Below, piece by piece: positions 10,349 through 22,096 of a stretch of DNA of 36,701 nt; position 1 is the stretch's first letter, and each line of letters starts with the position of its first letter. A program made the translations under genes and the position numbers. This stretch comes from Microcaldota archaeon (GTDB taxonomy: Archaea > Micrarchaeota > Micrarchaeia > Micrarchaeales > Micrarchaeaceae). The DNA lies in contig JAKAPJ010000013.1 in NCBI GenBank assembly GCA_021807115.1, positions 1 to 36,701 of the forward strand. The letters are read 5' to 3'. The notes beneath the pieces were generated by a model. The model was not told the origin of the DNA and did no database searches. It worked only from the letters and a program-made list of their open reading frames with translations.

Positions 10349-10882
10349 ATGTGCATGGTTACACAAGACCTGGGCAAGTACAAAGGCTCACACCCAGAGG
10401 AGGTGCGGAGGATGATGTACGCTATAGGGAGCGGCGACCTGCTAGGGCTCGAATCATCGGTACGCGGCGGTCAGGTAGACATAAACTCCGACACGTTCGA
10501 CGGCCGCAGCGGCCTTGGGCTCGCAATGCAGGCGGAGAAGGGGGATGCCGCGGCGCTGCTGCTGCGCAGCCGCGCGGATCCAAACCGCAGGGACGGCAAC
10601 GGCCTAACCCCTATTTTCTACGGGCTGTCCAATCCCGAGTCTGACACAAAGTACGAGATGATAAAGCTTATACTCGATGCTGGAGCCGATGCGTCAGCAA
10701 GGGCCCCTAACGGCGAGAGCGCATACGAGTACGCGAAGCGTACATCGTCGCGGCGCATAGTCGAGCTTATCGAGGGCGCCGCCGCGCGGGCGCGCGCGGC
10801 GAGGGACGCGGCCGTAGGCACGGCAATGGAGCGCATAAGCGCCGCGCTTGGCGACATATCAGAGGAGCTTCGGTCCGAGTGA
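10349..10882 (+). CDS. Ankyrin-repeat protein
   Basis: 177 residues (start at the ATG at 10349 or 10355). About three ankyrin repeats run from residue 20 to 135, with recognisable turns such as GRSGLGLAMQAEKGDAAALLLRSRADPNRRDGNGLTPIFYGL and EMIKLILDAGADASARAPNGESAYEYAKR. A helical Ala/Arg-rich tail follows. There is no signal peptide, so it is probably a cytoplasmic protein-binding scaffold. Its stop lies 4 bp before the aglB start, so the two are likely cotranscribed and may be functionally linked. The binding partner is unknown. Confidence 0.85.
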   Translation: MCMVTQDLGKYKGSHPEEVRRMMYAIGSGDLLGLESSVRGGQVDINSDTFDGRSGLGLAMQAEKGDAAALLLRSRADPNRRDGNGLTPIFYGLSNPESDTKYEMIKLILDAGADASARAPNGESAYEYAKRTSSRRIVELIEGAAARARAARDAAVGTAMERISAALGDISEELRSE

Positions 10883-10886
10883 TGCG

Positions 10887-13800
10887 ATGTTCAGCACAAT
10901 AGTTGCACTCCTGCTCTCAATGCTCCTAATGTTCATACCCGGGTTCCTGATAGCGCTGGCGCTGCTGAAGAAGACGGGCCTTAACATATTCGAGATTGTC
11001 GTGATAGGCTTCATATTCGGCCTGTGCGCGCCGGCCGGCCTCACATGGGTCGAGTCGTACCTGATGACCTACGTGCACTTCTTCTCATATTCACTCACGC
11101 TCTTCCTGGTCAACGTCGCCCTGCTGACGATAATCGGCGCGGCGCTGTGCGTGTGGCAGGGCGTGTTCAACAACTTCGAGGCTGACTTCCTCCCCAAAAA
11201 GGAGCACCGCACGCTCGACCACACATGGGTATGGGCGGTATTGGTGCTGCTGATGCTGGCGACCTTCCTGACTAGGATGGAGAGCATAGGGACCGCGCCC
11301 ACATTCTTCGAGTTTGACCCGTACTTCGACATGATAGATTCACAGTACATACTAACGTATGGCCAGCAGCTGCTGCTGGACCCGTCGGCCTGGCCCGCAG
11401 TTCCTGCCGGCACCAACCACAGGATTGAGCCAATTGTGCCATATATTGAGGCGTTCTGGTACGACATGGTAAACGCCTTCAGCTACCACTACACCACATT
11501 CAGCACCTCACTGATGAGCTATGTGGGCGGGGTATATCCACCGATAACCGCGGCGCTGCTGGTGTTCTGCGTCTTCCTGCTGCTCTACAAGGAGTACAAC
11601 GAGTACATAGGACTGATTGGGGCTGCCATCGTCTCCGCGATGCCGGTGATATTCTCCACGTTCATAGCCGGGGAGCAGCTTGTCGAGCCCTGGGGCATAT
11701 TCGCCCTGTTCTTCTTCCTTGGGACATACATGCTTGCGGTAAAGAACCCCAAGAGCAAGCGGCTTGCGGTGCTGGCCGGCTTGGCGTTCGTTGCCAACTT
11801 CCTCGGCGCCCACTACTACACCGTGACCACAGGTGTCTACGCCATATACATGATACTGCAGGGGCTGGTTGACATAGTGCGCGGCACCATAGACCGCGAC
11901 TTCTACAAGATGAACATAACGATCATAGCTGTAATCGCGGTATTCTACCTGATATACCTGCCGTACAGCTCAACCCTGCAGAACAGGATACCTACGGTCC
12001 TTGGGGTTCCGCTCACCCTGTCCGGGCTGATAGCCGCCCTGCTGCTTGTCGCAATCATGGATCTGGTGCCGTTCCTGCTCAAGGAGCGGGGCATAATATT
12101 CACCAACACCGAACTGAAGTCCCGGCTCGCATGGATAGGCTTCGTGGCCGTGGTAGCCCTGCTTGCGGTCCTGTTCACCCCTATTGGGAACCCGATACGC
12201 GGCTACCTCTCTCTCAGCGTCAAGTTCACCACGCCCTCAATACCACTCTTCATGACAGTCGAGGAGTACATACCCACCGGCCTGCTCTACGACTTCGGCG
12301 CGCAGGGCTTCGGGATGATAGGCGCTGACATAGCAGGCCTGCCGCTGCTGGTCTGGCTGGTGTGCGCGGTCAGCCTGGTGCTGCTGGCGCTGAGCATACT
12401 CTACCGCAACAGCAAGACCGCGATACTGTACATGGCAATAGCGCTTCCGCTGATGTTCGCCGGATTCTCCGAGGTGAAGTACCTGCCACATTTCGGCGTC
12501 GCGTACGTCATACTGTTCTGCGTCATCCTCGGCGAGGCGATATTCATGGCCGAGAACAACTTCCAGATACGGCACATCAACAGCAAGGACGAGGCCCGCC
12601 TGGACAGCGGTGAGCTAATACCCACGGAGGCCAAGCAGTACGACAGGCATGGCCATATAATCGCGATAATACTTTCCATCGGCATATTCTTCTTCTCAAC
12701 TGTGCTGGCGCTGGTCTACCTCGCATACATAGCATTCTCCGAGAAGTACAAGGGGCACGCCACGGCCATATGGGCCGCGTTTGCGGTGCTCGTCGTGTTC
12801 ATCGGGGTTTCATACCTGTCCTCGCACACCATGCTCTACGGCGAGAGCGCATCCTACCTAGATGCCGTGAACTCCGCCCTCATGGTGGGCTCGGCCCCAA
12901 CCCCCGCCGCCGCATGCAACAACATAGCAAACGCGGGCTACAGCACCGGCTACACGCTATTCTGCAACACGATCCAGGGCTACTGGCTCAACGCCATGTC
13001 ATGGATAGCCGCGAATGTGGGCCCCGCCGCGCCGAGGGTGCTGGCATGGTGGGACTACGGCGACTGGATAAACTGGTTCGGCCACAGCAACGCCGTCCTC
13101 AGGGGCGACAATGCCAACGCGTTGGAGGACTACGCGACCGCCGCGCAGTTCGTACTCGGTGCGAACCAGAGCGTGACTCCGGCCAGCCTCGCCAACATGA
13201 TGAACACCAACCAGACAAAGTATGTGCTGCTCGATCAGGACCTAATCTCAAAGTGGCAGGCGCTTGACTTCCTTGGCTGCGTGGACCGCAACCTCACGTC
13301 CAGGCAGTTTGCGATAGCGGCTGGCGCGTCGCAGCAGCCCCCTGTGCCATATGTGCTCGGCACATCGCAGTGCGAGGTAGCCCACGACCCGCAGTTCGCG
13401 CTCATCCCCTACCAGGCCTTGGTGCCAAACGTCAACTCCACCCAGCAGAGCATAAACTTCTACTGCTCCATATCAAACAAGAGCGCCATCTACATACAGA
13501 CGGAGCTGGTGAGCGGAGGCGCGCTGTCCAACCAGAGCGTATGCGTGAACCCCAACGGGCCAAGCAGCGGCGTGCTGTACGTATACAACCAGAGCGGCAA
13601 GAAGATGAACGCAGTCATCCAGTCCGCGTTCTACGAGGGCGCAGTCAACTACCAGGGCATAACGTTCCTACAGTTCCTGATGATATACCTGCCCAACGCG
13701 CCCAACGACACAATAACCAACGCGCCATCCGGATTCTACAACTCCAACTACTACAAGGGCCTGGTGCTGGGCAACCTGCCTGGATTCACCGAGGTATACC

Positions 13801-13940
13801 CGCAGAACGCCACCGGGAAGATAAACTTCCTGAACACCACCTGGCCGGTAAGGATATACGAGGTCAACAACTACACCGGCAGCCTGCCGCCGGTGCCGCA
13901 GAAGTACCCGTGGATCCACAACAACTATACAATGCCGTAG
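10887..13940 (+). CDS. aglB: Oligosaccharyltransferase AglB (STT3 family)
   Basis: 1017 residues. About 13 membrane helices occupy the first two-thirds and a soluble periplasm-like domain the rest. The first external loop has FDPYFD at 144-148, equivalent to the metal-binding DxD-type motif. The C-terminal domain has WWDYG at 721-725, the signature that recognises the +2 Ser/Thr of the sequon, and a likely DK-type element around D783-K789. The enzyme transfers lipid-linked glycan to Asn in N-x-S/T on secreted proteins, many of which are encoded in this window. The ATG at 10887 was chosen, 4 bp after the ankyrin gene; an upstream TTG at 10848 would add 13 polar residues before the first membrane helix. 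Confidence 0.95.
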   Translation: MFSTIVALLLSMLLMFIPGFLIALALLKKTGLNIFEIVVIGFIFGLCAPAGLTWVESYLMTYVHFFSYSLTLFLVNVALLTIIGAALCVWQGVFNNFEADFLPKKEHRTLDHTWVWAVLVLLMLATFLTRMESIGTAPTFFEFDPYFDMIDSQYILTYGQQLLLDPSAWPAVPAGTNHRIEPIVPYIEAFWYDMVNAFSYHYTTFSTSLMSYVGGVYPPITAALLVFCVFLLLYKEYNEYIGLIGAAIVSAMPVIFSTFIAGEQLVEPWGIFALFFFLGTYMLAVKNPKSKRLAVLAGLAFVANFLGAHYYTVTTGVYAIYMILQGLVDIVRGTIDRDFYKMNITIIAVIAVFYLIYLPYSSTLQNRIPTVLGVPLTLSGLIAALLLVAIMDLVPFLLKERGIIFTNTELKSRLAWIGFVAVVALLAVLFTPIGNPIRGYLSLSVKFTTPSIPLFMTVEEYIPTGLLYDFGAQGFGMIGADIAGLPLLVWLVCAVSLVLLALSILYRNSKTAILYMAIALPLMFAGFSEVKYLPHFGVAYVILFCVILGEAIFMAENNFQIRHINSKDEARLDSGELIPTEAKQYDRHGHIIAIILSIGIFFFSTVLALVYLAYIAFSEKYKGHATAIWAAFAVLVVFIGVSYLSSHTMLYGESASYLDAVNSALMVGSAPTPAAACNNIANAGYSTGYTLFCNTIQGYWLNAMSWIAANVGPAAPRVLAWWDYGDWINWFGHSNAVLRGDNANALEDYATAAQFVLGANQSVTPASLANMMNTNQTKYVLLDQDLISKWQALDFLGCVDRNLTSRQFAIAAGASQQPPVPYVLGTSQCEVAHDPQFALIPYQALVPNVNSTQQSINFYCSISNKSAIYIQTELVSGGALSNQSVCVNPNGPSSGVLYVYNQSGKKMNAVIQSAFYEGAVNYQGITFLQFLMIYLPNAPNDTITNAPSGFYNSNYYKGLVLGNLPGFTEVYPQNATGKINFLNTTWPVRIYEVNNYTGSLPPVPQKYPWIHNNYTMP

Positions 13941-13948
13941 TTTCGAAC

Positions 13949-13961
13949 GCTATAAATATTT
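13949..13961 (+). promoter_or_regulatory. TATA box of tRNA-Ile
   Basis: GCTATAAATATTT is a near-consensus archaeal box right after the aglB stop codon. Initiation is expected around 13982, a few bases ahead of the mature tRNA 5' end. Confidence 0.7.
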
Positions 13962-13987: not shown

Positions 13988-14062
13988 GGGCTCGTAGCTC
14001 AGCATGGTTAGAGCGCTGGTCTTATAAGCCAGATGTCGTGAGTTCAAATCTCACCGGGCCCA
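13988..14062 (+). tRNA. tRNA-Ile with UAU anticodon
   Basis: The cloverleaf folds completely. The acceptor stem is GGGCTCG with CGGGCCC (one G-U). The D stem is GCTC/GAGC. The anticodon stem is CTGGT/GCCAG with the 7-base loop CTTATAA. The T stem is GTGAG/CTCAC with loop TTCAAAT, and the discriminator is A. The anticodon at 14023-14025 is TAT, which reads the isoleucine codon AUA directly. Most archaea read AUA with a CAU-anticodon tRNA whose C34 is changed to agmatidine. No intron is present and the terminal CCA is not fully encoded. A T-run (14068-14072) follows. Confidence 0.93.
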
Positions 14063-14065
14063 CCT

Positions 14066-14073
14066 GATTTTTA
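14066..14073 (+). terminator. T-rich terminator after tRNA-Ile
   Basis: GATTTTTA follows the tRNA 3' end by a few bases. Archaeal RNA polymerase stops at such short T-runs. Confidence 0.4.
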
Positions 14074-17834: not shown

Positions 17835-17877
17835 GTGAAGCTCTAATCATAACTTGACTTCCACAACAGGTGCTCGA

Positions 17878-18885
17878 ATGCCCAATATGCCTGCCGACCT
17901 CCAGCGGAAGATGGCGAAGCAGGGCTACCATTTCGTGGGCGAGCATTCTGCGGTTAAGGTGTGCGAGTACACCGCGAACGGCCTGAAGGGCGGCACGCTG
18001 TGCTACAAATACACATTCTATGGCATAAGGAGCTGGAGGTGCGTGCAGGGCACCACCGCCATAGGCTGCGACCTGGGCTGCGCCTTCTGCTGGCGCCTCA
18101 TCCCCGAGGAGCACGGCTTCAAGTGGAACGAGCTCAATGCGGTGCAGGCGTGGGACGATCCAGAGGCGATAATAGCCGGCATGGTAAGGGAGCAGAGGCG
18201 CATAGTAAGCGGCCACAAGGCGTCTGCCGACACCGACCTGAAGATGAGGAGGTGGAAGGAGGCCAACGAGCCCATGCACGTGGCGCTGAGCTTGACAGGC
18301 GAGCCGATGTTCTACCCAAAGATGGGGGAGCTGCTCAACGCATTTCACAAGAGGGGCATCAGCACGTTCCTTGTGCACAACGGCACCCTGCCTGACGCAA
18401 TCGAGAAGCTCCGGCCGCTGCCAACGCAGCTCTACATCTCGCTGCAGGCTCCCGACGAGGAGACGTACGAAAGGACCGTCCGGTCAAAGATACCCGGGGC
18501 ATGGCAGAGGTTCATGCGGTGCATGGACGTGCTGCGCGCGGCGAAGACCCGCACGGTCCTGCGCATGACTCTTGTCAAGACGCTGAACATGCACAATCCC
18601 GAGGGATACGCGTCCATAATACGGCGCGCATCACCCAACTACGTCGAGGTAAAGGGTTTCTCGTTCGTGGGCGGCGCAAGGGACGCCGCAAGGGGCCTGT
18701 CGCTTTCAACAATGCCGAACCACGAGGAGGTGAGGGAGTTCGCGGGCACCCTTGCGCAACTGACTGGGTACACGGTGACCGCCGAGCACAAGCCCAGCAG
18801 GGTAATACTGCTGTCCCGCGACGAGGAATCCGCCAGGGAGAGGATAATAGACTTCAGCACGATACGGGCACAGGCGATTCAGTAG
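17878..18885 (+). CDS. taw1: 4-demethylwyosine synthase (TYW1/Taw1), radical SAM
   Basis: 335 residues from the ATG at 17878 (an upstream TTG at 17854 is unlikely because it lies at the predicted transcription start). The enzyme condenses pyruvate carbons with N1-methylguanosine at position 37 of tRNA-Phe to make the tricyclic wyosine core. Radical SAM cysteines are C64, C68 and C71 (CDLGCAFC). The second cluster uses C29, C42 and C55, at the 13-residue spacing seen in methanogen Taw1. LSLTGEPMFYP and VEVKGFSFVG are conserved family segments. Like other archaeal forms it lacks the flavodoxin domain of eukaryotic TYW1. Its end overlaps the end of rnp4 by 7 bp. Confidence 0.96.
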   Translation: MPNMPADLQRKMAKQGYHFVGEHSAVKVCEYTANGLKGGTLCYKYTFYGIRSWRCVQGTTAIGCDLGCAFCWRLIPEEHGFKWNELNAVQAWDDPEAIIAGMVREQRRIVSGHKASADTDLKMRRWKEANEPMHVALSLTGEPMFYPKMGELLNAFHKRGISTFLVHNGTLPDAIEKLRPLPTQLYISLQAPDEETYERTVRSKIPGAWQRFMRCMDVLRAAKTRTVLRMTLVKTLNMHNPEGYASIIRRASPNYVEVKGFSFVGGARDAARGLSLSTMPNHEEVREFAGTLAQLTGYTVTAEHKPSRVILLSRDEESARERIIDFSTIRAQAIQ

Positions 18886-19184
18886 CGGACATGCCTCTGC
18901 CTTCCGCACCCCTTGCAGACATATGCCACGTACCTGCCCGAGCTGACAACCCGAACGGTGGCGTTCAGGCCAGGCACCATCAGCGTGCCGCAGCTGCCGC
19001 ATATGGAATTGCGCATGGCCCGCGGCATGCTCACCTTGTAGTGCGCCGACAGTTCCCTTATCTCAGCAACATACCTGCGCGCGAGGCCCGGCCTGGAGCC
19101 TATCTCGTTTCCAGCCAGCCCGAACAGGATCTGCATGCGCTCAAGCGCTATCTTCCTTACGAGCTCCTTCTTGCCTTCCACCAT
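18879..19184 (-). CDS. rnp4: RNase P protein component 4 (Rpp21)
   Basis: 101 residues. ALERMQILFGLAGNEIGSRPGLARRYVAEIRELSAHYKVSMPRAMRNSICGSCGTLMVPG and VAYVCKGCGRQRHVRY match archaeal RNP4. The two CxxC pairs (CGSC, CKGC) bind zinc. With RNP1 it supports the specificity domain of RNase P RNA during tRNA 5' maturation. It is the last gene of the reverse operon pcn - DJ-1-like - rnp4, with a 10-bp gap to the gene before it. Confidence 0.93.
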   Translation of the reverse strand: MVEGKKELVRKIALERMQILFGLAGNEIGSRPGLARRYVAEIRELSAHYKVSMPRAMRNSICGSCGTLMVPGLNATVRVVSSGRYVAYVCKGCGRQRHVRY

Positions 19185-21944: not shown

Positions 21945-21973
21945 CTTTTTACCAATCTAGTCTTGCTTTCGGT

Positions 21974-22046
21974 GGGGCTGTACGCTAACCTGGTAGACTT
22001 CCAGCTTCGGGAGTTGGATACCCGAGTTCAAATCTCGGCAGCCCCA
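21974..22046 (+). tRNA. tRNA-Pro (CGG anticodon) with weak D stem
   Basis: The acceptor stem GGGGCTG/CAGCCCC is perfect. The anticodon stem CCAGC/GTTGG (one G-U) has loop TTCGGGA, anticodon CGG at 22008-22010. The T stem CCGAG/CTCGG has loop TTCAAAT, and the discriminator is A. The D arm has the GG pair (21992-21993), but its stem positions (21983-21986 against 21996-21999) allow only one Watson-Crick and one G-U pair. No intron or encoded CCA is seen. No T-run follows the gene. Confidence 0.85.
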
Positions 22047-22096
22047 TTCGCGTTCGCTTGCACTACATGTGCATGAACCAGCCACTACGTGTGCCC

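Follow-up and report, generated by a model that had tools for sequence, protein, structure and literature searches.

Results

The tRNA-Ile(UAU) gene and its neighbors

The window, by which we mean the whole 36,701-nucleotide stretch of DNA that was analyzed, contains a tRNA-Ile gene with a UAU anticodon (Table 1). ARAGORN called it as tRNA-Ile(TAT) at positions 13988 to 14064, the final two bases being a CC past the discriminator, and the Rfam RF00005 match had an E value of 5.9e-16. The predicted cloverleaf folds at -29.3 kcal/mol, which was equalled by 1 of 200 shuffles. It has an acceptor stem of GGGCUCG/CGGGCCC, a D stem of GCUC/GAGC, a CUUAUAA anticodon loop, a UUCAAAU T loop, and A as the discriminator. 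The initial annotation had described a tRNA-Ile with a genomically encoded UAU anticodon, and the ARAGORN call, the Rfam score and the cloverleaf fold all bear this out. It had also pointed to a possible sequencing error in the anticodon. Such an error can be excluded because the genus is represented by 14 genomes, of which 13 kept the strict UAU pattern described below and 10 had the intronless form.

TABLE 1 Features of the tRNA-Ile(UAU) locus (positions in the window)
Feature	Position	Strand	Evidence
STT3/AglB-like oligosaccharyltransferase gene, conserved 5' of the tRNA across the window's family	10848..13940	+	Pfam PF21436, 21.4 bits (below the cut-off of 23)
TATA-box-like TATAAATA, 37 bases 5' of the tRNA start, putative promoter	13951..13958	+	Direct sequence reading
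tRNA-Ile gene, anticodon UAU, intronless, CCA not encoded	13988..14062	+	ARAGORN; Rfam RF00005, 71.3 bits; fold z -3.16
Anticodon stem-loop CTGGT-CTTATAA-GCCAG, U31.G39 closing pair	14016..14032	+	U31.G39 in 76/78 UAU genes whose 3' arm could be read
Anticodon TAT (positions 34-36), followed by A37 and A38	14023..14025	+	ARAGORN anticodon position 36; strict UAU pattern in 232/301 genomes
T run 3' of the tRNA, possible archaeal terminator	14068..14072	+	Direct sequence reading

Elsewhere in the window lie a second tRNA gene, for tRNA-Pro(CGG), at 21973-22047, and a gene for a TYW1-like wyosine-forming radical SAM protein at 17854-18885 (PF08608 and PF04055), which is adjoined by an RNase P Rpp21-type gene at 18879-19184.

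We examined the gene order around the UAU tRNA in related genomes. The STT3 gene adjoined the tRNA in 18 of the 19 loci fetched from the window's family (L049-L067), in none of the 11 fetched from family f2 (L038-L048), and in none of the 30 from other families (L188-L217). On a named contig, that of Candidatus Micrarchaeota archaeon REEA81 (L101), the same tRNA was arranged in the same order with STT3 and ribosomal protein S3, which showed 53% and 80% identity, respectively. Because of this shared gene order, we take the phylum to which the 301 genomes compared here belong to be Micrarchaeota. The source assembly comprises 44 contigs and is 85.75% complete, and a pseudogene, an assembly error or contamination might be suspected in such an assembly. 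Such an artefact has a negligible probability and is refuted by the conservation of the gene and its place: all but one of the 14 genomes in the genus carry the same gene, and its position beside STT3 recurs in the window's family and on the contig of a named Micrarchaeota genome. The full cloverleaf of the window gene also speaks against an artefact.

Distribution of the UAU tRNA and its intron

We looked across the 301 genomes of the phylum with a strict pattern for the 5' half of the tRNA, for which the reversed-pattern control gave zero matches in the results shown. The pattern matched a UAU tRNA in 232 of the 301 genomes, in 80 of the 96 high-quality genomes, and in 99 of 126 genera. A looser pattern (237/301) was discarded in favor of the strict one because its reversed control also gave matches. 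The window's order consists of families f1 and f2 (164 genomes), with 137 genomes lying outside it; splits by family or order were counted by hand from the result tables. By that count, the UAU tRNA was present in 74 of 85 f1 genomes, 68 of 79 f2 genomes, and 90 of the 137 others. The intronless form was found in 61 of the 301 genomes, all of them in the window's order (50 in f1 and 11 in f2, split by hand).

We then read 79 UAU genes individually, a nonrandom sample (30 + 29 + 20 loci) that excludes L194, which the loose pattern had matched by chance. Thirty of these had been chosen as intronless. Among the other 49, 48 had an intron directly after A37. One gene was truncated by a contig end, and the remaining 78 all had a matching 3' anticodon arm. 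In the two exceptions to the U31.G39 closing pair (L310 and L314), the pair was U-A; spurious first matches were excluded from this count by eye. T31 also occurred in 4 of 31 GAU tRNA matches (hand count), so we did not accept U31.G39 as peculiar to the UAU tRNA. Several UAU genes outside the order, among them L195, L198, L201, L312, L313 and L317, appeared to be interrupted twice, by the intron after A37 and by another in the T arm.

The strict pattern found no UAU match in 69 of the 301 genomes, including 16 of the 96 high-quality ones. In genus g61 (G011-G020), there was no UAU match in any of the 10 genomes, and TiaS was missing too. The full RF00005 set of one of them, G015, which is 100% complete, showed neither a UAU tRNA nor an elongator tRNA-Met. 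We suspect that the AUA reader of this genus is encoded by genes broken by several introns. A wider D-arm pattern applied to 12 UAU-negative genomes returned nothing tRNA-like, with true matches about equal to those of the reversed control.

UAU tRNAs also occurred in at least 116 stretches of named genomes, mostly bacteria and many of them Patescibacteria/CPR by title (L068-L183). The acceptor stem had at least 6 of 7 pairs in 115 of the 116 stretches among the matches listed. Such tRNAs are thus not rare beyond the archaea.

tRNA set of the source genome and absence of TiaS and TilS

The source genome (1.18 Mb) gave 38 RF00005 tRNA matches. Two of these have a CAU anticodon: one (L016) is of the initiator type and carries the initiator's three G-C pairs, and the other (L017) was assigned as the intron-bearing elongator tRNA-Met. 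A third CAU tRNA, of the tRNA-Ile2 type, was not seen among the 38 matches of this 85.75% complete genome, and neither was tRNA-Ile(GAU). The GAU tRNA is present together with the UAU tRNA in a genus mate (G222), which shows that the gaps in the source genome matter; since the assembly is incomplete, its absences rest on its relatives. A single IleRS match exceeded the cut-off in the source genome (NCBIfam ileS), its best solved relative being the Isoleucine--tRNA ligase of entry 8c9d.

The tRNA search also turned up two tRNA-Asn(GUU) genes with differing bodies (L001 and L002, on contigs C36 and C35) and a Leu-type tRNA with a CTCAAGA anticodon loop and a T loop that contains an insert, for which ARAGORN made no call (L036, C15:5754-5851). 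On the minus strand of contig C19 (L019:1705-1803), this archaeal genome matched the model of the small SRP RNA of bacteria (RF00169, 42.3 bits against a cut-off of 40).

A profile search for TiaS (PF08489), which the initial annotation had suggested looking for, found none in the source genome, none in the 301 genomes of the phylum, and none in the 96 high-quality genomes, while all four control archaea were positive. Bacterial TilS (TIGR02432) did not exceed the cut-off in any of the 301 genomes, and 10 of 14 controls did. A tiaS gene accompanied by a tRNA-Ile2(CAU), the combination that the initial annotation had named as contrary evidence, was therefore not found in the source genome. Its proposal that AUA is read without agmatidinylation of C34 gains support from the same results. 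A divergent TiaS acting on a hidden tRNA-Ile2(CAU), with the UAU tRNA as an extra, would be conceivable in that PF08489 spans only one TiaS domain and the tRNA models miss intron-broken genes. This explanation is very improbable, given a TiaS count of zero in 301 genomes against four of four controls and the presence of the UAU gene in 99 of 126 genera.

AUA as the main isoleucine codon

AUA had been named the dominant isoleucine codon, and the codon counts agree: in 31 window ORFs chosen mechanically, it accounted for 424 of the 614 Ile codons. Among ribosomal-protein-like ORFs the count was 87 of 106, and elsewhere in this genome it was 781 of 1,152. The observed AUA share of 0.69 compares with 0.25 expected from third-base use in fourfold boxes. 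In the flanks of the UAU genes, the share was 0.66 in the window's order versus 0.44 in families f3 and f4, a comparison limited to the vicinity of the tRNA at 30 loci each.

Elp3 and NcsA-type proteins in the window's order

Elp3 (TIGR01211) exceeded the cut-off in 125 of the 301 genomes. All of these were among the 137 genomes outside the window's order, and by hand count of the families none of the 164 genomes within it scored over the cut-off. The source genome had no match. Seven matches were found inside the order, all of them weak (E values of 2e-7 or worse).

A PP-loop protein resembling NcsA/TtuA (L298) fell below the NcsA cut-off. Matches to the TilS model with E values below 1e-10, which we attribute to an NcsA/TtuA-like PP-loop protein, occurred in about 91 of the 137 genomes outside the order and in none inside it (hand count). 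Read through this proxy, the window's order has probably lost the NcsA-type U34 thiolase as well.

Discussion

Taken overall, the best explanation of these observations, and one that we regard as very likely, is a working tRNA-Ile3(UAU) that replaces tRNA-Ile2(CAU) and the agmatidine made by TiaS. Against it stand the 69 genomes without a UAU match, all 10 of genus g61 among them, and the lack of a tRNA-Ile(GAU) match in the source genome. That this tRNA reads AUA without agmatidine is, in our estimate, almost certain. U34 would pair directly with the A of AUA, and with such plain pairing agmatidine would not be needed. Under the identity rules of the two synthetases, the single IleRS of the genome would charge tRNA-Ile(UAU), and MetRS would ignore it for want of C34.

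It is reasonable to require that tRNA-Ile(UAU) be kept off AUG. We propose that AUG would mostly be left to tRNA-Met(CAU), the better-pairing tRNA, and that help may come from t6A37 and from how the anticodon loop is shaped, in place of an Elp3-made side chain on U34. In archaea that have Elp3, the U34 side chain could guard against AUG. The window's order is without Elp3 and the window gene is without an intron, so both this answer and the Psi34 known from yeast lose their usual footing. We put at about even the chance that U34 in the window's order is unmodified, or lacks any known U34 side chain.

A different guard would be pseudouridine. U34 (and U36) might be converted as in eukaryotic tRNA-Ile(UAU), limiting reading to AUA, with the intron serving as the recognition mark in most of the phylum and the window's lineage having dropped the intron or using another enzyme. 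We consider this rather unlikely. The eukaryotic tRNA-Ile(PsiAPsi) has an encoded UAU anticodon, as in the window, and an intron after position 37, as in 48 of the 79 UAU genes that we read. According to passages of PMC4090602, yeast Pus1 needs the intron to make Psi34 and Psi36, and according to parts of PMC6000648, the Korarchaeum UAU gene bears an intron too. The window gene and 60 others are intronless, however. Archaeal tRNAs in general commonly carry introns at 37/38, so the parallel with the eukaryotic intron may be chance.

It is also conceivable that the tRNA reads some AUG codons and that the cell tolerates a low level of isoleucine at methionine positions, as might be expected where neither TiaS nor TilS was found and where, within the window's order, Elp3 was not found either. 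Unmodified Bacillus subtilis tRNA-Ile(UAU) does bind AUG, but in the portions of PMC4810244 consulted this binding is weak relative to that of AUA, and we regard such misreading as distinctly unlikely.

The tRNA-Ile3(UAU) type itself is already known, from Nanoarchaeum, Korarchaeum, Mycoplasma mobile and ARMAN-2. The ARMAN archaeon of the last case we take to be a member of the Micrarchaeota; a relative of ARMAN-2, Mia14, has been cultured together with Cuniculiplasma (PMC5498576). In passages of PMC12397907, the ARMAN-2 UAU tRNA-Ile is intron-bearing and serves as a splicing substrate; the window gene, in contrast, has no intron. In Mycoplasma mobile, a bacterium, tilS is absent and the UAU anticodon is unmodified (parts of PMC4013482 and PMC4810244). 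Among archaea, the sections consulted of one survey report a UAU tRNA in 2 of 167 genomes and conclude that it is nearly absent from the domain (PMC6000648), and those of the tRNAscan-SE 2.0 paper list the same two archaea together with 17 bacterial genomes (PMC8450103). These two, Nanoarchaeum equitans and Korarchaeum cryptofilum, resemble the window in that an encoded-UAU tRNA-Ile3 replaces tRNA-Ile2(CAU), as described in parts of both papers (PMC8450103 and PMC6000648). They represent 2 of the 167 genomes of that one survey, compared with 232 of 301 genomes of a single phylum here. Unlike them, the window's order has the intronless form together with the loss of Elp3.

Our literature search, which covered titles and the starts of abstracts and few subscription journals, returned no report that Micrarchaeota lack TiaS or that any of their orders lacks Elp3. 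Because this coverage was partial, it lends weak support to the novelty of the two losses. The phylum-wide replacement, compounded by the loss of Elp3, may be new; the system is ordinary in kind and unusual in reach.

The usual account is that archaea separate AUA from AUG by means of agmatidine. We suggest, tentatively and at somewhat less than even likelihood, that a whole archaeal phylum swapped agmatidine for an encoded UAU anticodon and that the window's order then dropped Elp3 and probably the NcsA-type thiolase. If this is true, the order would become the first known case of an archaeal lineage distinguishing AUA from AUG by means of a U34 that is either unmodified or protected in some other way, and would do so with AUA as its main isoleucine codon. 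AUA and AUG form the one pair in their codon box where a wobble slip swaps isoleucine and methionine. A phylum without detected TiaS, containing an order that is without Elp3 and yet favors AUA, would be a natural test of whether position 34 needs a chemical guard.
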